Source of the DNA: Microcaldota archaeon
GTDB taxonomy: Archaea > Micrarchaeota > Micrarchaeia > Micrarchaeales > CABMGC01
Reading direction: 5' to 3'
NCBI GenBank assembly: GCA_021797745.1
Contig: JAJZZD010000003.1
Location: 1 to 64,000 of the forward strand
Length of the DNA: 64,000 nucleotides
Made by a program: the position numbers and the translations under genes. Below, one piece after another: positions 1 through 60,090 of this stretch. Positions within the stretch are counted from its first letter, which is position 1; every line of letters begins with the position of its first letter. The notes under the pieces were generated by a model, which did not search any database, was not told the DNA's origin, and was given only the letters and a program-made list of their open reading frames with translations.

Positions 1-252
1 TAGGGTTAGCGCAGATAATAGCCCATAATAGAAAGGTGCGTATGCGAAGCCAGATACCATATCATTCTTTTTAAAAGTGTATACTCCTTTTTTCAACGCA
101 TACAGGCGGTCATTACTTTTCATGTATGATAAAATCCTTGTAAGATTCGAGGGTTTTATTCCGCTATTACCGCTGAAGTATAGCCTAAGGTCCCTGTACG
201 TGAAAACCGGATAGCCTGAGAAATGATTCTTGATTTCATTGACTATTGTCAT
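1..252 (-). CDS. AbiEi-like antitoxin, 3' end outside window
   Basis: An open frame from the ATG at 252 runs to the window edge without a stop (84 codons visible). The start overlaps the last 17 bases of the AbiEii-like gene in another frame, which suggests translational coupling. The visible protein looks like an N-terminal winged-helix segment, with the motifs VFTYRDLRLYF and LKKGVYTF, as in AbiEi-type antitoxins and transcriptional regulators of type IV TA systems. In that family the antitoxin represses its own operon and counteracts the nucleotidyltransferase toxin. The family call rests on this short segment and on the neighbour. Gene order is toxin first, the reverse of the usual abiEi-abiEii order. 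Confidence 0.6.
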   Translation of the reverse strand, partial: MTIVNEIKNHFSGYPVFTYRDLRLYFSGNSGIKPSNLTRILSYMKSNDRLYALKKGVYTFKKNDMVSGFAYAPFYYGLLSALTL

Positions 253-937
253 TTGCCCACTCTTTAAGCCTCTTTATCATGAGTTCGAACGAAGGTGGCA
301 GACCAGTAATTATCATATGGTCCAGACTTGAGATATCTGGAGGGGGCTTATTCTTTATTTTGGCAATCAGCTCCCTCATTTTTTTAGCAGTTTTGGGATC
401 GGCCTTTTTTATTAGCGAGACCAGATACCACATGTCGTAAAGGTCGTGGGCCTCTGGGTGCTTGAAACCGCCCTCGTTGTTGAACTTGTCGCTATACGCT
501 ATTATCTTCTCGTCCAATAGCTCGGCTGGGCTTAGAGACAGCACTACGATTTTGCTCCCGTCAATCTTGGAATAATCGGCGTGGATGCCTTTCTTATACT
601 TAAAATTGATGTCAATCTTCATTTTTGTGCCAGCTAATTCCACAATAAAATGCATGGTGTCGTTTGACTTACTGTAGCCTTTTTCCTTTACTGTAAATCC
701 ATTGTCCTGTAGAAACTTTGAGACTGCCCGGTACTCTTGCATCTTTTCTGCAGATGTTTTTGCTTCCATGTAGAAATCAAGATCCCTTGAGAATCTATTT
801 CCCGAATAGCAACGCCATATTGCTGTGCCGCCATGGAACACGAGATTTGTATACCTGCCATATAGAACCTCTATTAGTGTGTCTTCAAGTTTTGCTTTGT
901 CAACCTGTGTTGGGTCTCTTAGTTCCATGATTATCAC
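236..937 (-). CDS. AbiEii/AbiGii-type nucleotidyltransferase toxin
   Basis: A 233-residue protein with the nucleotidyltransferase signature HGGTAIWR at residues 35-42 and RDLDF at 51-55, the GG...DxD arrangement of AbiEii/AbiGii toxins. These enzymes transfer nucleotides to a cellular target and arrest growth as part of a type IV toxin-antitoxin or abortive-infection system. The rest of the protein (SPAELLDEKIIAY, HDLYDMWYL) fits the alpha-helical half of this family. Met1 and Met4 are both possible starts. The gene overlaps the downstream AbiEi-like gene. About 300 bp away, on the other strand, lies a tRNA-Ala-like relic, so the pair may belong to an element inserted at a tRNA. Confidence 0.8.
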   Translation of the reverse strand: MIIMELRDPTQVDKAKLEDTLIEVLYGRYTNLVFHGGTAIWRCYSGNRFSRDLDFYMEAKTSAEKMQEYRAVSKFLQDNGFTVKEKGYSKSNDTMHFIVELAGTKMKIDINFKYKKGIHADYSKIDGSKIVVLSLSPAELLDEKIIAYSDKFNNEGGFKHPEAHDLYDMWYLVSLIKKADPKTAKKMRELIAKIKNKPPPDISSLDHMIITGLPPSFELMIKRLKEWANDNSQ

Positions 938-1027
938 AACTACACTTTATTACATATTTATGTAATAATATACATTTATATATTTATGCGCCATAGTGAA
1001 CCTTTTGCATATTATTCGGTTGCAAAA

Positions 1028-1104
1028 TCTTTTTACGAAAAGTTTTATCAAAAACTCTGGGTGCGTAACCTTTTTGGAAAGGTTAATCGAAAACACTGGG
1101 TGCG
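1028..1104 (+). repeat. imperfect tandem repeat, about 39-bp period
   Basis: Two copies of a 19-base core, ATCAAAAACTCTGGGTGCG at 1047-1065 and ATCGAAAACACTGGGTGCG at 1086-1104, differ at two positions. Each core is preceded by a similar (G)GAAAAGTT or GGAAAGGTT segment, which gives a period of 39 bp. A weaker match (CTGTGTGCGAAG) follows near 1157. The AbiEii gene starts at 937 on the other strand, so these may be promoter-proximal operators or remnants of element junctions. I see no convincing gene in 938-1450 apart from the tRNA-like sequence; the ORF at 996-1196 has no recognisable content. Confidence 0.55.
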
Positions 1105-1221
1105 AATACAGCCAGATTTGCACCGTAGCTCTTTATATCTCTAAACGCGTAATAATCTGTGTGCGAAGACACGGATGTTCGCGTATTCGGAAATAAAATT
1201 TACGGTGCTAAAATGGAACAA

Positions 1222-1294
1222 AAGCTAGACGAGAAAGCCACGACCGTTTCGCTTTGCAAGCGGGAGGTCGCAGGTGCGATCCCCGCCTAGTCCA
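1222..1294 (+). pseudogene. tRNA-Ala(TGC)-like relic, 3' half well formed
   Basis: The 73-base stretch has an anticodon arm with loop TTTGCAA (anticodon TGC), variable loop AGGTC, a T arm, and a 3' acceptor strand CTAGTCC plus A. The acceptor would give a G3-U70 pair, the alanine identity element, because GCTAG of the 5' strand pairs with it. Positions 1 and 2 (AA against CC) do not pair, the D arm (GAGAAAGCC...) cannot fold normally, and the T loop is TGCGATC instead of TTCGATC. I read this as the 3' half of a tRNA-Ala with a degraded 5' half, possibly an attachment-site remnant beside the AbiE pair. A functional but very unusual tRNA is less likely. Confidence 0.5.
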
Positions 1295-33687: not shown

Positions 33688-34980
33688 ATGGCGGATCAAA
33701 TTGAACAGACAGAACAGACGGAACATACAAGACAAGCAGAGCGTGCAGGCAAGGCGGCACAGACCGCAGGCTTGCTGGATGTTGAGCGAACAAGGGAAGT
33801 TTACTCTAACATGAAAAATCCTTATCTTTTGAAATACTATTACAAGTTCAAGACTCTGAACCTGCTAAACACCACCGACATATATGGCTCTTCGCCGCCT
33901 GACATTTTCATAGGAAGGGCAGGCTACCCGAATGTGTACATGGGTCCTCTTGTCCCGCCCCAAAGTGGGGATACCTCGATAATGGGAGAGCCTGAGATGT
34001 GGACCAACAAGAGCATACCTGAAATAGTCGAGTACAGGTCTATGCTCGTGCGCGGGATGTACAAGGCAAACGTCAATGACGTTGGGTTCGGAAAACTCAC
34101 AGACATGCTTCAGGAGCTCGCAATCGCAGACAAATACACCGGCGTTGACATAGAGCTAAAGCGTAAACCGTCGCTCAACGTAAGCTTCGACGAGAACAGC
34201 CAGCCTTTCGGGCCCAGCGCCCCTCTCAAGGAGATGACGCTGGAAAACACAACGGCCAACGTGAAGATTGAAAAAGCATATTCCGATACTGACATGACAG
34301 CTACGCAGGCGATACTCGAACTGTATTCGAAAGGATTGCCGGTATCGCGCATACAAAAGGCGCTCTCGGCGGGCACGTTGGGAATAGGTGACAAAAGGAA
34401 GTTCGTGCCAACGCGCTGGAGCATAACAGCAGTTGATGACACCATATCAAAGGACAAGTTGAAAATAGTCAAGGATTACACTACACTAGATTCAATCAGA
34501 ATCTACGAGACCGTTGCGCTTGACAACCGCTGGGTCATTTTGATGATTCCTGGGGAATGGAGCTACGAGCTCATAGAGGCATGGTATCCTGGCACAACGT
34601 GGAACGAAAGCAAGAACAAGATAGACATATTCTCTTCAAGCGAATTCTTCTACGGAAGGAAGGGCTATGCTGAAATAGGCGGCTGTTATTATGCCGCAAG
34701 GCTTGCAGTGTCTGAGCTTTTGGAAAAACAGGGAGCGCAGGCAAAAGTAATCATAATGCGTGAAACGCACCCTGGCTACATAATGCCCGTAGGTGTTTGG
34801 AACGTAAGAGAGCACGTACGCGAGGCTCTCAGGAACAAGCCTCTTTATTTTGCAACTTTAAACGACGCCTTTGCGCATATTTCAAAGAAAATGGCCATAC
34901 CTATTAACATTTGGATAAAGAACAGCGAAGTTCTGCAGAACATAAAGTATCAGAAAAGACTTTCCGGCACAGTGCTCTGA
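33688..34980 (+). CDS. nreA: DNA repair protein NreA
   Basis: A 430-residue protein with the Nre family start GSSPPDIFIGRAGYPNV and GPLVPPQSGDTSIM, plus later NRWVILMIPGEWSYE and HPGYIMPVGVWNVRE. NreA acts in repair of DNA damage in archaea and in some species binds PCNA through a C-terminal PIP box; here the end reads QKRLSGTVL, so a classical PIP box (QxxLxxFF) is not evident. A Gln/Thr-rich N-terminus (IEQTEQTEHT) precedes the core, without the Cys4 zinc finger seen in some homologues. Its last codons overlap the 3' end of a tRNA-Glu-like sequence on the other strand. Confidence 0.88.
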   Translation: MADQIEQTEQTEHTRQAERAGKAAQTAGLLDVERTREVYSNMKNPYLLKYYYKFKTLNLLNTTDIYGSSPPDIFIGRAGYPNVYMGPLVPPQSGDTSIMGEPEMWTNKSIPEIVEYRSMLVRGMYKANVNDVGFGKLTDMLQELAIADKYTGVDIELKRKPSLNVSFDENSQPFGPSAPLKEMTLENTTANVKIEKAYSDTDMTATQAILELYSKGLPVSRIQKALSAGTLGIGDKRKFVPTRWSITAVDDTISKDKLKIVKDYTTLDSIRIYETVALDNRWVILMIPGEWSYELIEAWYPGTTWNESKNKIDIFSSSEFFYGRKGYAEIGGCYYAARLAVSELLEKQGAQAKVIIMRETHPGYIMPVGVWNVREHVREALRNKPLYFATLNDAFAHISKKMAIPINIWIKNSEVLQNIKYQKRLSGTVL

Positions 34981-35018
34981 TCGGGATTTGAACCCAAGTT
35001 CCGGCCTTGAGAGGGCCG
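34973..35018 (-). pseudogene. tRNA-Glu(CTC)-like 3' half
   Basis: On the minus strand the anticodon arm CGGCC-CTCTCAA-GGCCG (anticodon CTC), the T arm with loop TTCAAAT, and the acceptor 3' strand TCAGAGC plus A are well formed. Upstream of the anticodon stem no D arm with GG and no matching GCTCTGA acceptor strand directly follow. The 3' end coincides with the nreA stop codon. I read it as an attachment-site-like remnant or a tRNA pseudogene. A tRNA split at the D arm or with an unusual intron is possible but unproven. Confidence 0.55.
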
Positions 35019-35152
35019 TGTCCTTAACTGAATCAGCAGTCGTAAAACAAGCCCTGAATTTTAATTTTAAGGTGCGCTGACTCAGTTTTCAATTATCAAT
35101 TATCAATATAAAAGGACCCCAAGTAAAACTTTTAATTCTTTACCAGCAATAT

Positions 35153-35347
35153 ATGCTAGACTTGTACATGTCAAAACGCTCAGAACCTATGCTGGCAATG
35201 TTGATGGGTATAATCATCCTACTAGCTGACGCCTACTGGATATACACGAGTGGTGCATACGCTCTGTGGATAGAACTCGGCATAGTGATATTTGTAGCTA
35301 CGCTGGTCTGGCTCTACCTTGACTGGGACATGTCGAGAAAGCAATAA
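35153..35347 (+). CDS. small membrane protein, two TM helices
   Basis: A 64-residue protein with two TM segments (LAMLMGIIILLADAYWIY and LWIELGIVIFVATLVWLYL) and a short charged tail, DWDMSRKQ. Start may be ATG 35153 or the ATG at 35168 (MSKRSEP). No family recognised. It lies 8 bp before the secreted-repeat protein and may be co-transcribed; a TATA-like AATATAAAAGG is at 35105-35115. Confidence 0.6.
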   Translation: MLDLYMSKRSEPMLAMLMGIIILLADAYWIYTSGAYALWIELGIVIFVATLVWLYLDWDMSRKQ

Positions 35348-35355
35348 GTGATTGA

Positions 35356-35856
35356 ATGAACAAAACAAGCACAATAGTTGCGGTAATTGCTGCACTCATA
35401 ATAATAGCAGGCGTAGTTTACGTGATAAGCAGAGGTAATGCAGGGTCATATGCAGCATCAACCACAACCATAGTGACCGCGAGTCCCACTACCACATCTC
35501 CAACAACCAACTTTACATCAACAGCTTATACCGTTAAGCTCGAGAACAGCACCACTTTCGGCACCTACCTCGCAAATGCGAGTGGGTTCACTCTCTACAC
35601 ATACAGCGGCGACACCCAGAACAGCGGCACGAGCTCATGCACTGGAGAATGTGCCAGTATATGGCCTCCGTTCTACACATCAAGTCTAGTACTGCCTCCT
35701 GGTCTCAACGCGTCAAGCTTCACAACTATAACGAGAAGCGACGGATCCAAGCAACTGGCTTACAATGGATGGCCGCTCTATCTATACACCGGAGACTCGT
35801 ATCCGGGCCAGGTAAACGGCAACAACGTCGCAGGTTTCAAGGTAGCGATTAAGTAA
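35356..35856 (+). CDS. membrane-anchored protein with secreted-repeat (COG4315-like) domain
   Basis: A 166-residue protein: an N-terminal TM anchor (residues 6-26), a Thr/Ser-rich linker (about 33-58), then two motifs of the lipoprotein/secreted repeat family, ASGFTLYTYSGDTQNSG and YNGWPLYLYTGDSYPGQV, with CTGECASIWPPF between. The family is extracellular and of unknown function; some members are linked to redox or metal stress. It lacks a lipobox Cys, so it is anchored by the TM helix. Confidence 0.8.
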   Translation: MNKTSTIVAVIAALIIIAGVVYVISRGNAGSYAASTTTIVTASPTTTSPTTNFTSTAYTVKLENSTTFGTYLANASGFTLYTYSGDTQNSGTSSCTGECASIWPPFYTSSLVLPPGLNASSFTTITRSDGSKQLAYNGWPLYLYTGDSYPGQVNGNNVAGFKVAIK

Positions 35857-35894
35857 CTGCCTATGCTGGATGACTGCCATCTGAGACTACAAAA

Positions 35895-35971
35895 GTCTAG
35901 AAGCTAGACATTCAGAATCCTGATTCTGATAAAGATCCTCTGACTTTAGCCAGAAGAGTGCCACGGCTAAA
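35895..35971 (+). other. three adjacent inverted repeats
   Basis: The gap 35857-36157 holds GTCTAG-AAG-CTAGAC (35895-35909), then TCAGAATC-CT-GATTCTGA (35912-35929, eight perfect pairs), then TTTAGCC...GGCTAAA (35945-35971). The last is followed by a run of A. They lie just after the secreted-repeat gene and could be an RNA 3' structure or protein-binding palindromes. No gene is seen in the rest of this gap. Confidence 0.5.
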
Positions 35972-36157
35972 AAAAGCTGTCGGTATTGCAAAAAATGGTT
36001 TGTTGGTATAAATAATGCCGCAACGCATGTTCCTGCTTGCATCTTTGCATATCGATAAAATGCGTGTCTGATATATTTTCATATTTGGCGAAGTGACGAA
36101 ATGTAAATATCAAGTGCGCATATTGCCAGTTTTTTCTTGTTTTTTGCCACGTACTAG

Positions 36158-36583
36158 CTATAGGAACGGATTTCTTATTTTGATTCCAGAAATTTTATTG
36201 AAATCTCTTTCGTTTTCTGTAACAATTTCAGTTATTCCATTTTCTTTCATTGTTTCAGATATCAATACGTCTAAAAAAGGAGCGTTAAATAGGTCAGCGT
36301 GTTCAAGCGCCCTGTCTACTGTATTTGAATTATAATCTATTTTGTGCCATTGCCTTGACAGAATTAACGATTGCGTTATGATTTTGGCAGTTTCTACTGC
36401 GACATCTAATCGCCGGGTTAGCGCGTTAAATAATTCAGCAAGTACCTGATTGGATATAACTCCAGTTATTTCGCCCTTGAACGCTTGTTCTACTAGCTTT
36501 TCGCATATTTTCCTTTTCAACGGCTCTCCGGAGTCATACGCATAACACAAAATATTAGTATCGAAAAATAGTTCATCTTTCAT
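36158..36583 (-). CDS. vapC: PIN-domain toxin VapC
   Basis: A 141-residue PIN protein with the acid residues in FFDTNILCYAYD, LAELFNALTRR, and the late FLDVLI and ENERDF. VapC toxins are Mg-dependent RNases that cut tRNA or rRNA. It overlaps its antitoxin gene (36573-36836) by 11 bp, the usual VapBC arrangement. Confidence 0.85.
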   Translation of the reverse strand: MKDELFFDTNILCYAYDSGEPLKRKICEKLVEQAFKGEITGVISNQVLAELFNALTRRLDVAVETAKIITQSLILSRQWHKIDYNSNTVDRALEHADLFNAPFLDVLISETMKENGITEIVTENERDFNKISGIKIRNPFL

Positions 36584-36836
36584 ACAATTCTTCCCTATTA
36601 AATTTCCATTTTTTCATTTTTATTCCTTCTTTCAATAGCGTCAACGATTTTGCTACTACGTCAGCATTTTTCTTCTTTGTCCATTCTTTCATTGCTTCTG
36701 TAAGAGCTCTCCCAAGATATCCTTTTCTTTTGCCGTATCTCTTGCTTGCCTCTATTCTAAATTCGCTTTCTGCCTCCTCATCAACATTAACCGTGATTGT
36801 TTTTGATCTGCTGTATTTTGCCATATCATCAATCAT
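36573..36836 (-). CDS. vapB: VapB-like antitoxin
   Basis: An up to 87-residue protein; MAKYSRSK (start at 36824) is the more natural N-terminus. SKTITVNVDEEAESEFRIEA begins as a beta strand followed by helices, like RHH antitoxins, and the Lys-rich C-terminus would wrap the toxin. It should bind DNA and repress the pair. A decayed copy of its N-terminus lies directly upstream. Confidence 0.7.
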   Translation of the reverse strand: MIDDMAKYSRSKTITVNVDEEAESEFRIEASKRYGKRKGYLGRALTEAMKEWTKKKNADVVAKSLTLLKEGIKMKKWKFNREELYER

Positions 36837-46182: not shown

Positions 46183-47268
46183 ATGGATAAGCAGCTAAGG
46201 ATAAAGCTTAATGAAATATTTAGGCACGCAAAAGGCGTTGGCAAGATAGTCTTGGTGAACACAGATAGGCAAGACCCTAACTTCACATACCTTACGCAGT
46301 TCACGAGCGGCCTGTTCGAAAACGACATACTTGTTCTTGAGAGCGCAGGCGCAAGGCAGTACACGAGCGAGCTCGAATACGAGACTGCGATGCTGCAGAG
46401 GGCCCCTGGAATAAAGATAACTAAGTTGACAGAGGGAAATTACAAGAAGCTGCTAAGCAGCGAGCTCAAGGGCAAAAGAATAGGCATAAACGGCGGATTC
46501 CTGCCTTATGCCACATACATGGGCCTGAAAAAGTACAAGCCAAATAAGATAATCGACGTTTCAGGCAGCTTGGAGCAGGCAAGAATAGTTAAGACGAATG
46601 CTGAAATAGAAAACATAAAAAAGGCAGTGCGTGTGACAAAGTCGGCAATGCGAACAATACAGAAATATTTCAAGGCCGGCATGAAAGAAACCGATTTGGC
46701 AAAGAAATTTGATGAGATATCGAGCGGTCTGGGCTCAGAGGGGCCGTCCTTTCCCACTATAGTATGCTTTGGCAAGAATGCGGCACTGCCGCATCATTTT
46801 CCTGACGGAACAAAACTTAAGAAAGGAGATTTCATATTGATAGACGCAGGTTCAAGGAATAAGAATTACTGCAGCGACATAACCCGGACGTTTCTGTTCG
46901 GAATCAAAAGCAGAGAAGACTATGAAAAGAAGATGGCAATTTACAATGCCGTAAAGCAGGCGCAGCAGCTTGCGATATCAAAAATAAAACAGGGAGTAAA
47001 AGGAGGCGCCGTAGACAATGCAGCAAGGGATTACATAAACTCTGTTGAAAATGGTAAATATAAAAACACATTCATACACAGTCTCGGGCATTCGATAGGA
47101 ATAGAAGTACACGACGGCTCAGGCCGCATGCTGGGTCCTGGGTCGCTGCAAGTCCTCAAGGAAGGCATGATAACAAGCGTAGAGCCAGGCATATACATAA
47201 ACGGATTCGGAGGGGTAAGAATTGAAGATGATGTACTGGTAACCACGAAGGGCGGAAAGGTTCTCTGA
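46183..47268 (+). CDS. pepQ: Xaa-Pro dipeptidase-like M24 metallopeptidase
   Basis: A 361-residue protein with a creatinase-like N-terminal domain and an M24 domain. Metal ligands are seen in LIDAGSRNKNYCSDITRTF (two Asp), HSLGHSIGIEVHD (His), TSVEPGIYI (Glu) and VRIEDDVLV (Glu). It cleaves X-Pro dipeptides or N-terminal residues before Pro in the cytoplasm. A TATA-like TTTATATTTATG precedes by 30-40 bases. Confidence 0.9.
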   Translation: MDKQLRIKLNEIFRHAKGVGKIVLVNTDRQDPNFTYLTQFTSGLFENDILVLESAGARQYTSELEYETAMLQRAPGIKITKLTEGNYKKLLSSELKGKRIGINGGFLPYATYMGLKKYKPNKIIDVSGSLEQARIVKTNAEIENIKKAVRVTKSAMRTIQKYFKAGMKETDLAKKFDEISSGLGSEGPSFPTIVCFGKNAALPHHFPDGTKLKKGDFILIDAGSRNKNYCSDITRTFLFGIKSREDYEKKMAIYNAVKQAQQLAISKIKQGVKGGAVDNAARDYINSVENGKYKNTFIHSLGHSIGIEVHDGSGRMLGPGSLQVLKEGMITSVEPGIYINGFGGVRIEDDVLVTTKGGKVL

Positions 47269-47382: not shown

Positions 47383-47455
47383 GGGGAGTTCTGCTAGCTT
47401 GGTAGGCTACCACCTTCGGGAGGTGGTGACCCGAGTTCAAATCTCGGACTCCCCG
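47383..47455 (+). tRNA. tRNA-Pro(CGG)
   Basis: Acceptor GGGGAGT/ACTCCCC, anticodon stem CCACC/GGTGG with loop TTCGGGA (anticodon CGG), T arm CCGAG-TTCAAAT-CTCGG. The base at position 73 is G rather than the A usual for archaeal tRNA-Pro. No intron, no CCA. Its last 30 bases plus three downstream are repeated exactly at 48175-48207. Confidence 0.92.
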
Positions 47456-47582
47456 AATTTCGACGGCAAATCTGTGATTAAAAAACAAAAATGCGAGACA
47501 TCATCACAGAACATCATGTATTGAAACAGTACACAAACAGAACATATTTAAATCATGAGTTGCATAATATTACCGTGATAAA

Positions 47583-48174: not shown

Positions 48175-48207
48175 GTGACCCGAGTTCAAATCTCGGACTC
48201 CCCGAAT
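48175..48207 (+). repeat. copy of the tRNA-Pro 3' end (33 bp)
   Basis: Identical to 47426-47458, covering the tRNA variable loop, T arm and acceptor 3' strand plus AAT. There is no tRNA 5' half before it. It marks the distal end of the TA cassette. Confidence 0.9.
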
Positions 48208-48248
48208 CTCATAAGGGGTTATATATAGAACGCACATTTTGCACCCCT

Positions 48249-57962: not shown

Positions 57963-58370
57963 ATGGCAATCGAAGACATATATGCTGAGGAATTGATATA
58001 CAACTACGAGAATCCGAGCGCAAAAGGCAAGCTTGCTAACAGCACCGTAAGCATGCACGAGGAGAATGTGTCGTGCGGAGATGTAATAACAGTATATCTC
58101 GTCATAAAAGACGGCAAGATAGCAAATGCGAAGTTCGAGGGTACTGGCTGCGTGATATCTATGGGAACTGCCAACATGCTCATAGAGCATGTCAAGGGGG
58201 TTGGCCTGGAGCAGCTTGAGAAGATGACACAAGGAGATTTGCTGAAGCTAATCACAATAGACCCGGGACCTGTGCGCATGCACTGCGCGACCCTGTCATT
58301 GAGGGCCGTCAAGAAAGCGGTTCTTGGGTATGAGAAAAAGCCAATAGACACTGCGACAAAAGAGTTGTAG
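57963..58370 (+). CDS. iscU: IscU/NifU-like Fe-S scaffold
   Basis: A 135-residue protein with the three cluster-binding Cys: VSCGDVITVYL (with the stabilising Asp), GTGCVISMGTANML and RMHCATLSLRAVKKA. It builds 2Fe-2S or 4Fe-4S clusters for transfer to targets. No IscS or Suf genes lie next to it in this window. Confidence 0.92.
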   Translation: MAIEDIYAEELIYNYENPSAKGKLANSTVSMHEENVSCGDVITVYLVIKDGKIANAKFEGTGCVISMGTANMLIEHVKGVGLEQLEKMTQGDLLKLITIDPGPVRMHCATLSLRAVKKAVLGYEKKPIDTATKEL

Positions 58371-58432
58371 CATAATAAAGCGCGAGCTTATTCTACAATC
58401 TTATTTAAATTGAAGGTTCGTAATATTTTTGC

Positions 58433-58505
58433 AGTCCCGTCGTCTAGCGGCCAAGGACGCAGGGCTTTGGACCCTGCTACATCGGTTCGAATCCGGTCGG
58501 GACTA
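58433..58505 (+). tRNA. tRNA-Gln(TTG)
   Basis: Acceptor AGTCCCG/CGGGACT, discriminator A, anticodon stem CAGGG/CCCTG with loop CTTTGGA (anticodon TTG), D-loop AGCGGCCAAGG, T arm ATCGG-TTCGAAT-CCGGT. No intron. Its 3' part is repeated at 59152-59187. Confidence 0.94.
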
Positions 58506-58566
58506 ATTTATTTTTATGTATGCCGCATGAGAGTGTTACGAAATGCGACAGTAATATTTATATATC

Positions 58567-58595
58567 TATTAATGTCATATTAATACGGTATTAAT
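58567..58595 (+). promoter_or_regulatory. three TATTAAT boxes spaced 11 bp
   Basis: TATTAAT occurs at 58567, 58578 and 58589, each 11 bp apart, ending at the antitoxin start codon (58596). One-turn spacing suits cooperative binding of the antitoxin to its own promoter. The TATA box may be TTTATATATC just upstream. Confidence 0.55.
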
Positions 58596-58844
58596 ATGGT
58601 TAAGGCGCTGGTAGACATAAGCGATAATGCAAACACAATACTTAATATAATTAAAGCAGAGTACGGCCTTAAAGATAAATCTCAGGCGATAGACCGTATG
58701 GCGGAAGACTATAAAACATTAGTTTTCGAACCTAAAGTTAAGGCGTCTTACCTAAAAAAACTTGAATCGATAAAGAAAGAACGCCTAATAAAAATAGGGG
58801 GAATCACAGATTTCGACAAGAAGTACGGTTTAACCAAGAAGTGA
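58596..58844 (+). CDS. DUF2683-type antitoxin
   Basis: An 82-residue protein, MVKALVDISDNANTILNIIK, AEYGLKDKSQAIDRMAEDY and a C-terminal GGITDFDKKYGL, as in the archaeal DUF2683 family that commonly precedes RelE-type toxins. Probably autoregulates through the TATTAAT boxes. The toxin starts 4 bases after its stop. Confidence 0.82.
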   Translation: MVKALVDISDNANTILNIIKAEYGLKDKSQAIDRMAEDYKTLVFEPKVKASYLKKLESIKKERLIKIGGITDFDKKYGLTKK

Positions 58845-58848
58845 GCTA

Positions 58849-59124
58849 ATGCCGCAATCCTTGCCGTATGACATTGAATTACGCGAGCATGTAGCTAAGA
58901 TATTCGAAAAATTGGAGAAGCGAGATAGGACGCAGCTGATTGCCATACGGAAGAAATTGGCTGAAATTGTAGAGGATCCGCAGAAGTTCAAGCCGCTTCA
59001 TCCTCCGATGCAAAGCATCCGAAGGGTGCATATATTGAAAAGCTTCGTTTTGACTTATTCAGTCGTTGAAGAAAAGCACACTATAATAATCGAAGATTAT
59101 GCGCATCACAATGAAGTATACTGA
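58849..59124 (+). CDS. RelE/YafQ-type toxin
   Basis: A 91-residue protein: an N-terminal helical hairpin (KIFEKLEKRDRTQLIAIRKK), then the RelE strands RRVHILKSFVLTYSVVEE and IIEDYAHHNEVY with a C-terminal His pair and Tyr. It should act as a ribosome-dependent mRNA endonuclease. Second gene of the tRNA-Gln cassette. Confidence 0.8.
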   Translation: MPQSLPYDIELREHVAKIFEKLEKRDRTQLIAIRKKLAEIVEDPQKFKPLHPPMQSIRRVHILKSFVLTYSVVEEKHTIIIEDYAHHNEVY

Positions 59125-59151
59125 TGAGTGGCAAACAAAAAGCAGTTTTGG

Positions 59152-59187
59152 CCCTGCTACATCTGTTCGAATCCGGTCGGGACTAAT
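59152..59187 (+). repeat. copy of the tRNA-Gln 3' end (36 bp)
   Basis: CCCTGCTACATC, one mismatch, then GTTCGAATCCGGTCGGGACT and AAT. It covers the 3' anticodon stem, variable loop, T arm and acceptor strand of tRNA-Gln. It marks the distal end of the TA cassette. Confidence 0.9.
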
Positions 59188-59232
59188 ACTAAGCTGCTTT
59201 TTAAACCTGATTTTCTAATTCAAATAGGTTGA

Positions 59233-60090
59233 ATGCTGCCTCTGTATATTCTTGTTGCAGCCGCTTCGGGGTTCTGGGGCGTATCTGCGGTTCTCGAAAA
59301 AAAGGCGCTCGGAAAAGAATATGCGTCTGCATATCTATCCAGTTTCGCGCTCATAACTGCGGTATTTTCGATAGTTTTGCTGCCATTTTCTAACTTCTCG
59401 ATGTCAGTACAGAGCCTGTCGCTTATTTACATATACAGTGTGATTACTACTTTTGCATACCTTCTTGTCGCGAGAATTTTCAGGCACAGCAACATATCTG
59501 CTTCATCGCCTTTGTTCAGCACCCTGCCGCAGGTCCTTATTGTCATATTTGCGTTTTTGATCCTGGGCGAATCCCTTTCTTACTTTCAGTACTTGGCGCT
59601 CGCAATTCTCCTGCTCGCCGCCTATTTCATGCTTTTCGGAAGCAGGTCGAGGGCGTATTTCCAAAGCAACAAATACCGGATCATGACTGTGATTTATTCG
59701 CTGGTTTTTGGCGCAAGTGCCATATTGCTAAAATACGTATTGTTCAGCGTAAACATCTTCGCATTCCTTGTTTTGTCGCAGATATTCATGCTGATTAACA
59801 TGGGCGTTTACATGCAGCTTAAATACGGCGGCATAAAAGAGACAGCGTCAAATCTGAGGAAGCACAGCGGCATAATCATACCCATTTCAGTGCTAACAAT
59901 TGGTTACAGAGCCTTTTACTATGCGGCAGTATCTCTTGTCGCAGTAAGCATCGCCGCGCCTCTTGTGAACACTTTGTACGTGGCCATAACGCTGCTTGCC
60001 GGAATATTCCTTTTCAAAGAAAAAGATGCACTGAGAAAAGGAGTCTTGGCGATTGTCATAATTGCGGCCGCGTATGCGCTCGTATCTTAG
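59233..60090 (+). CDS. EamA/DMT-family transporter
   Basis: A 285-residue protein with about ten TM helices in two EamA halves, each ending in a charged loop; LGESLSYFQYLALAILLLAA and AGIFLFKEKDALRKGVLAI are the repeated family endings. It exports or imports a metabolite not identifiable from sequence. Confidence 0.87.
   Translation: MLPLYILVAAASGFWGVSAVLEKKALGKEYASAYLSSFALITAVFSIVLLPFSNFSMSVQSLSLIYIYSVITTFAYLLVARIFRHSNISASSPLFSTLPQVLIVIFAFLILGESLSYFQYLALAILLLAAYFMLFGSRSRAYFQSNKYRIMTVIYSLVFGASAILLKYVLFSVNIFAFLVLSQIFMLINMGVYMQLKYGGIKETASNLRKHSGIIIPISVLTIGYRAFYYAAVSLVAVSIAAPLVNTLYVAITLLAGIFLFKEKDALRKGVLAIVIIAAAYALVS

Follow-up and report, generated by a model that had tools for sequence, protein, structure and literature searches.

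A toxin–antitoxin pair between tRNA-Gln and a copy of its 3′ part in a Micrarchaeota genome, a probable minimal integrase-less cassette

In this study, we analysed a window of 64,000 nt (positions 1 to 64,000 of contig JAJZZD010000003.1) in which a pair of small genes lies between an intact tRNA-Gln(TTG) and a partial copy of its 3′ part (Table 1). The 36-nt core of the repeat (58472-58507 and 59152-59187) is identical at 35 of 36 positions and widens to 42 nt with 39 matches. The two copies are 680 nt apart, leaving ~0.65 kb between the tRNA and the copy, and the only plausible genes there are ORFs of 82 and 91 aa separated by 4 nt. The placement of a toxin–antitoxin (TA) pair between tRNA-Gln and a 35/36 copy, claimed in the first-pass annotation, was thus confirmed by tRNA calls, repeat alignment and ORF content. 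The insert is bounded as expected of a tRNA-targeted element, by an intact tRNA and a partial 3′ copy in direct orientation; it does not qualify as an autonomous form, which would carry its own site-specific integrase, since only the two TA ORFs are inside. No third att copy was found past the EamA gene that follows. Upstream of the antitoxin gene are a TATA-box-like element and a 17-nt palindrome broken only at its central base, both of inferred function.

Table 1. Features of the tRNA-Gln and tRNA-Pro loci (window coordinates)
Feature	Position	Strand	Remarks
tRNA-Gln(TTG), intact	58433..58505	+	insertion target; restored at proximal junction
Proximal att-like repeat	58466..58507	+	from anticodon arm 3′ side to 2 nt beyond tRNA end; 39/42 vs distal copy
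Distal att-like copy of tRNA-Gln 3′ part	59146..59187	+	repeat comparison
TATA-box-like promoter element of Gln cassette, ATTTATATA	58556..58564	+	function inferred
17-nt palindrome ATTAATACGGTATTAAT, probable antitoxin operator	58579..58595	+	function inferred
Antitoxin, 82 aa, DUF2683-like (below Pfam cut-off)	58596..58844	+	
Toxin, 91 aa, RelE fold (modelled)	58849..59124	+	
NifU-like gene	57963..58370	+	conserved upstream neighbour of tRNA-Gln; flank, outside element
C/D-box sRNA, sR2/sR3-like, below gathering score	60142..60196	+	flank
tRNA-Pro(CGG)	47383..47455	+	target of companion cassette
Proximal att-like repeat at tRNA-Pro	47426..47461	+	35/36 vs distal copy
Pro-cassette antitoxin, 80 aa	47583..47825	+	no Pfam match
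ParE/HigB-like toxin of Pro cassette, 89 aa	47822..48091	+	
Distal att-like copy of tRNA-Pro 3′ part	48175..48210	+	
M24-type peptidase-like gene	46183..47268	+	upstream neighbour of tRNA-Pro in 30/30 loci examined; flank

Both proteins of the Gln pair match Pfam families only below the cut-off (toxin to ParE_toxin, E 0.0014; antitoxin to DUF2683, E 0.015). An AlphaFold2 model of the toxin (mean pLDDT 80) is matched by RelE, RelBE and YoeB structures at TM ~0.7 (Foldseek), and a profile built from 12 relatives of the toxin finds HP0892-type toxins in the PDB. On the strength of the model, we conclude that the toxin has a RelE fold despite the sub-cut-off match; of the earlier name, DUF2683/RelE, the second half is therefore upheld and the first rests on a weak match only. 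The layout is that of a type II TA system of the RelBE/ParDE superfamily, with a small RelE-fold toxin and a small antitoxin upstream in one operon, while addiction function, including growth inhibition and its neutralization, is inferred. A locus of the same layout lies at tRNA-Pro in the same window; its toxin passes the Pfam ParE_toxin cut-off. A search with the Gln toxin fails to retrieve the Pro locus, in line with the earlier statement that the two sets of TA proteins are not close, but 'unrelated' overstates the difference between the pairs, as matches to the ParE/RelE Pfam family are seen for both toxins. The two pairs differ, and their toxins come from one superfamily.

The window belongs to a Micrarchaeota MAG of 806 kb (9 contigs, 90.6% complete) with 41 tRNAs above the Rfam cut-off, and we surveyed the DNA stretches around all of them. 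A downstream copy of the tRNA's own 3′ end was present at 5 of the 41 (Gln, Pro, Leu, Val and Thr), with offsets of 1503 for Leu, 807 for Val and 5024 for Thr. When the last 24 nt of each tRNA were compared with the 2 kb downstream, four of the 41 gave best matches of 24, 23, 23 and 19 nt; the best match in the 2-kb upstream flanks of the 41 was 16/24, and 0 of 1025 dinucleotide shuffles scored at least 18/24. The Gln and Pro repeats are far above chance, and the Gln repeat is not a chance match. Of the four ParE/RelE loci in the genome, the three that are intact are each found no more than ~2.1 kb 3′ of a tRNA; the remaining one, at C3:208345, is a pseudogene with no tRNA 3′ match nearby. No match to the tyrosine integrase family PF00589 was found in this 90.6%-complete genome, so any mobility here would be past or reliant on an outside supply.

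The three other intervals have diverse contents. At tRNA-Val (L051:4026-6184; C3:233025-235183, minus strand) the 54-nt repeat extends beyond the tRNA by 42 nt, the interval holds an ORF of 195 aa whose family is unknown, and HicBA and an AbrB-like/RelE pair stand just past the copy; this locus is a small TA island. At tRNA-Leu (L043:8790-11157; C8:16789-19156) a 78-nt copy lies 1.5 kb downstream, with an AAA_14/DUF4143 ATPase inside and AbiEii outside, close to the contig end. The 21-nt repeat 5 kb downstream of tRNA-Thr (L041:5165-10312; C1:82164-87311) encloses several uncharacterized ORFs and a 55-aa DUF2683-like ORF, probably a larger element without a recognized integrase. Isolated tRNA fragments were also seen. 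An AbiEii gene at the start of the window (1-1294), whose possible partner is truncated at the contig boundary, lies beside a partial tRNA-Ala-like sequence (1227-1294); the intact tRNA-Ala(TGC) is found close to the end of contig C7, and the two contigs may therefore adjoin. A PIN-like/antitoxin-like pair (36158-36836, minus strand) has a degenerate tRNA-Glu-like fragment (34973-35037, minus strand) at a distance of ~1.1 kb, with no intact tRNA near this stretch (34973-36836), and copies of the 3′ parts of tRNA-Cys (L049:9894; C3:146893) and tRNA-Leu (L044:11108-11180; C3:176107-176179) lie far from the intact genes with no obvious element.

Taking the relatives into account, RelE-type TA units that are bounded by repeats and measure 612-752 nt are found at tRNA-Gln, -Pro, -Asp, -Arg and others. 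Pro-type cassettes at tRNA-Pro, -Arg and -Ser share 70-78% DNA identity from the leader/promoter through the toxin stop, and the TATA leader of the Gln cassette has a similar counterpart in its homologues at tRNA-Asp and tRNA-Val. Each of the two cassette types, Gln and Pro, retains a TATA-like leader of its own. Only a few nt separate the toxin stop from the att copy at loci L149 and L143. Cassettes can stand in series: L143 reads tRNA-Pro, PIN-type TA, att, RelE-type TA, att, and L323 reads tRNA-Asp, DUF2683-like/RelE pair, att, 103-aa protein, att, 175-aa protein, att. In contigs of genomes G040 and G039, repeated CGGCCAGGGCGTC sites, which equal the tRNA-Asp 3′ end of G039, lie among TA and other genes, and longer arrays with several CGGCCAGGGCGTC-like sites amid TA, nucleotidyltransferase-like, transporter and resolvase-like genes were observed at L088:284-4818 and L089:538-6604. 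The distal copy was undetectable at several tRNA-adjacent cassettes (L068, L139, L140 and L144), and no att copy was found behind a 271-aa gene at tRNA-Gln in L228. One Pro-type cassette (genome G014, L140:817-1767) has ~250 nt inserted between its antitoxin and toxin genes and lies at the same M24/tRNA-Pro place, where it could be vertically inherited.

These units could be deletion remnants, that is, TA pairs left from a larger virus or plasmid after loss of the integrase and cargo, kept since their loss is harmful and never mobile as cassettes. Such decay gives rise to CIMEs (PMC5704250), archaeal elements can lose their integrase after integration (PMC8371274), and larger elements do exist, namely the 5 kb element at tRNA-Thr in this genome and a 3.5 kb element at L103, in which tRNA-Glu and a 59-nt att copy enclose an integrase, a TA pair and other genes. 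Nevertheless, independent RelE-type cassettes are near-equal in size, the toxin stop can lie almost at the att copy (L149, L143), DNA homology across different tRNAs spans the TA unit together with its leader, and clean arrays of one-operon cassettes exist. Repeated deletion to the same limits is made less likely by this recurrence of size and limits, the leader homology and the clean arrays, and we regard the remnant explanation as unlikely, though not to be dismissed.

The sites without a cassette are also informative. In all 30 loci, tRNA-Pro is immediately preceded by the end of an M24-type peptidase gene, usually at a distance of 0-8 nt, and 28 of these loci lack this cassette; on the 3′ side, any gene is common to just three pairs of genomes, and in G006 an integrase comes after the same M24-linked tRNA-Pro (L124, L374). 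In 15 of 30 loci, including that of the window, NifU precedes tRNA-Gln on the same strand. In four relatives (L233, L244, L240 and L250) a C/D sRNA follows tRNA-Gln after 13-50 nt and thus marks the site without insertion; in the window the sRNA is 1.65 kb away, with the cassette and the EamA gene intervening, so the Gln site differs by more than the cassette. Insert-free target sites with conserved flanks, as expected of an insertion, are therefore present in relatives for both tRNA-Gln (C/D sRNA) and tRNA-Pro (M24 gene). Pro toxins are more alike than NifU (12 of 12 comparisons) and the M24 peptidase (10 of 10) between the same genomes, a sequence similarity that suggests transfer; the Gln toxins show no such excess, and neither toxin has relatives in viral contigs that would point to a viral carrier.

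To place these loci in the family, we examined 79 Micrarchaeota genomes, with 30 Gln-toxin and 30 Pro-toxin loci, 30 loci each of GNAT, PIN and EF1A as controls (90 in total) and a tRNA distance limit of 1.5 kb. A tRNA faced the toxin by its 3′ end in 10 of 30 Gln-toxin and 10 of 30 Pro-toxin loci (20/60), compared with 2/30 for EF1A, 6/30 for PIN, 7/30 for GNAT and 26/30 for integrases; about two thirds of the toxin homologues had no tRNA within this distance. Both toxin sets together had 23 tRNAs facing by the 3′ end vs 2 by the 5′ end. In a sample from all prokaryotes the counts were 12 vs 1 within 1.5 kb and 1 vs 0 beyond for Micrarchaeota loci and 0 vs 1 for other lineages, so that tRNA-3′ placement is mainly a Micrarchaeota trait. 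GNAT was rejected as a neutral control because it is itself 3′-biased, and EF1A was taken instead, with the caveat that its 30 loci are orthologues and hence not independent.

The same counts bear on the view that tRNA 3′ ends are general hot spots where any accessory DNA gathers, TA genes being merely common accessory genes. The GNAT and PIN loci had no 5′-facing tRNA at all, proximity alone fails to separate RelE from GNAT (p 0.23), and the 3′ neighbours of tRNA-Pro are diverse. Against this, the repeat-bounded intervals are enriched in RelE: the gene lay inside a tRNA-to-copy interval in 9 of 60 RelE toxin loci vs 1 of 90 GNAT, PIN and EF1A loci (Fisher p 0.001). We find a general hot spot rather improbable as an account; it bears on which cargo is taken up, and in terms of mechanism it can stand together with the explanation that we favour below. 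The first-pass annotation had inferred a shared mechanism that puts TA modules at tRNA 3′ ends, to be checked by surveying tRNA neighbourhoods, and the claim survived the version of that survey run here, given the three of four ParE/RelE loci and the 9/60 vs 1/90 contrast. A shared mechanism is further supported by the homologous cassettes at different tRNAs, but the targeting is not TA-specific, as integrases, GNAT and other genes also gather at tRNA 3′ ends.

Tyrosine integrases of the family facing a tRNA 3′ end were found at 13 isotypes, and the L103 element, with an integrase and a TA pair together, likewise speaks for integrase involvement. Their catalytic domains mostly lie ~450-490 nt from the facing tRNA 3′ end (L107-L134), and in one case the integrase ORF overlaps the tRNA end (L103:6534-7433). 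The outer limit of most repeats coincides with the tRNA 3′ end to within a few nt, while the inner limit varies, which fits att sites obliged to rebuild the tRNA, as in tyrosine recombination. Some repeats extend well past the tRNA (by 42 nt at Val and 112 nt at L063) and their lengths vary from ~20 to 132 nt, as might follow from tandem duplication or homologous recombination without a site-specific recombinase; the common outer limit and the abundance of tRNA-adjacent integrases leave this origin very improbable. A target-site duplication of casposon or transposon type was rejected, as the repeats are of variable length and their outer limit is in most cases set by the tRNA end; the locus also lacks the features of a casposon, with no cas1-sized ORF beside the TA pair and no inverted repeats found in 58300-59400.

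We consider it reasonably likely, though far from settled, that the locus is a minimal, CIME-like element without integrase, placed by a tRNA-specific tyrosine recombinase acting in trans. The element would consist of one self-contained TA operon (its own promoter, an antitoxin and a RelE-type toxin) and one att site that reproduces the 3′ part of its target tRNA. The recombinase may come from larger elements of the same lineage that bear an integrase, and it would join the att site of the cassette with the tRNA gene; the cassette's copy would then rebuild the tRNA 3′ end, the displaced host copy would stay at the far end, and further cassettes docking at the same tRNA would give arrays. The TA pair would make loss costly, which would explain the over-representation of TA among the shortest elements. 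The recombination chemistry, trans-mobilization, a circular intermediate and the addiction function are all inferred, as is the identity of the recombinase, none having been found in this genome, and the case for mobility over remnants is built on size, arrays and homology and not on any excision event seen. Against this explanation stand the absence of an integrase match in this genome, the toxin homologues with no tRNA nearby, the tRNA-adjacent cassettes without a detectable distal copy, the lack of a viral carrier, the possibly vertical G014 cassette and the lack of an explanation for the switch of a cassette from one tRNA to another.

Integron cassettes, including the TA cassettes of chromosomal integrons, are single operons with one recombination site each, in arrays behind a fixed platform. 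Here a tRNA gene serves as the platform, copies of tRNA ends serve as the sites and there is no integron integrase, so that the similarity is one of resemblance only: an integron would require an IntI-type tyrosine integrase and attI/attC sites, and the genome has no tyrosine integrase and its sites are tRNA 3′ ends (attC-type folding was left out). It is conceivable, and we offer it only tentatively, that the Micrarchaeota tRNA gene set forms a distributed integron-like docking platform, with TA operons as promoter-bearing sub-kb cassettes with tRNA-derived att sites, inserted and stacked by integrases in trans and movable between isotypes.

Other known systems share parts of this organization. 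CIMEs still have both att sites but no genes for integration or transfer, and can stand in tandem at a tRNA 3′ end (PMC5704250). The Gln cassette likewise keeps attL and attR without integration or transfer genes; however, it is a ~0.65 kb unit with one TA operon that recurs similarly at many tRNA types, in archaea without a known conjugative partner. In Dehalococcoides, serial islands behind ssrA are split by 20-bp copies of the ssrA end and 15 lack an integration module (PMC3146451), which resembles the present arrays in that islands behind one RNA gene are parted by copies of its end, but a serine recombinase and the single target ssrA are involved, and the word 'toxin' is absent from the main text of that paper. 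PYG1 of Pyrococcus yayanosii is likewise bounded by a direct repeat of the tRNA-Gln 3′ part (44 bp, with a 1-bp difference; PMC9897764), but it is 21.4 kb in size, whereas the insert here is a TA pair without integrase. In the literature searched, which covered few subscription journals, we found no description of TA-only cassettes at archaeal tRNA ends, of a form reduced to the TA genes alone, of the recurrence of such a form across many tRNAs or of its concentration in Micrarchaeota.

In summary, the wide yet patchy distribution of TA pairs is a standing question, and the cassettes described here point to a possible route by which they may spread in archaea with reduced genomes, namely as minimal passengers on tRNA-specific integration and not only as cargo of large elements. 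The repeat pairs, arrays, insert-free sites and matching integrases offer a testable system for the change of att specificity between tRNAs. They also serve as a warning that, in these genomes, tRNA 3′ fragments and small tRNA-adjacent TA operons mark integration sites.
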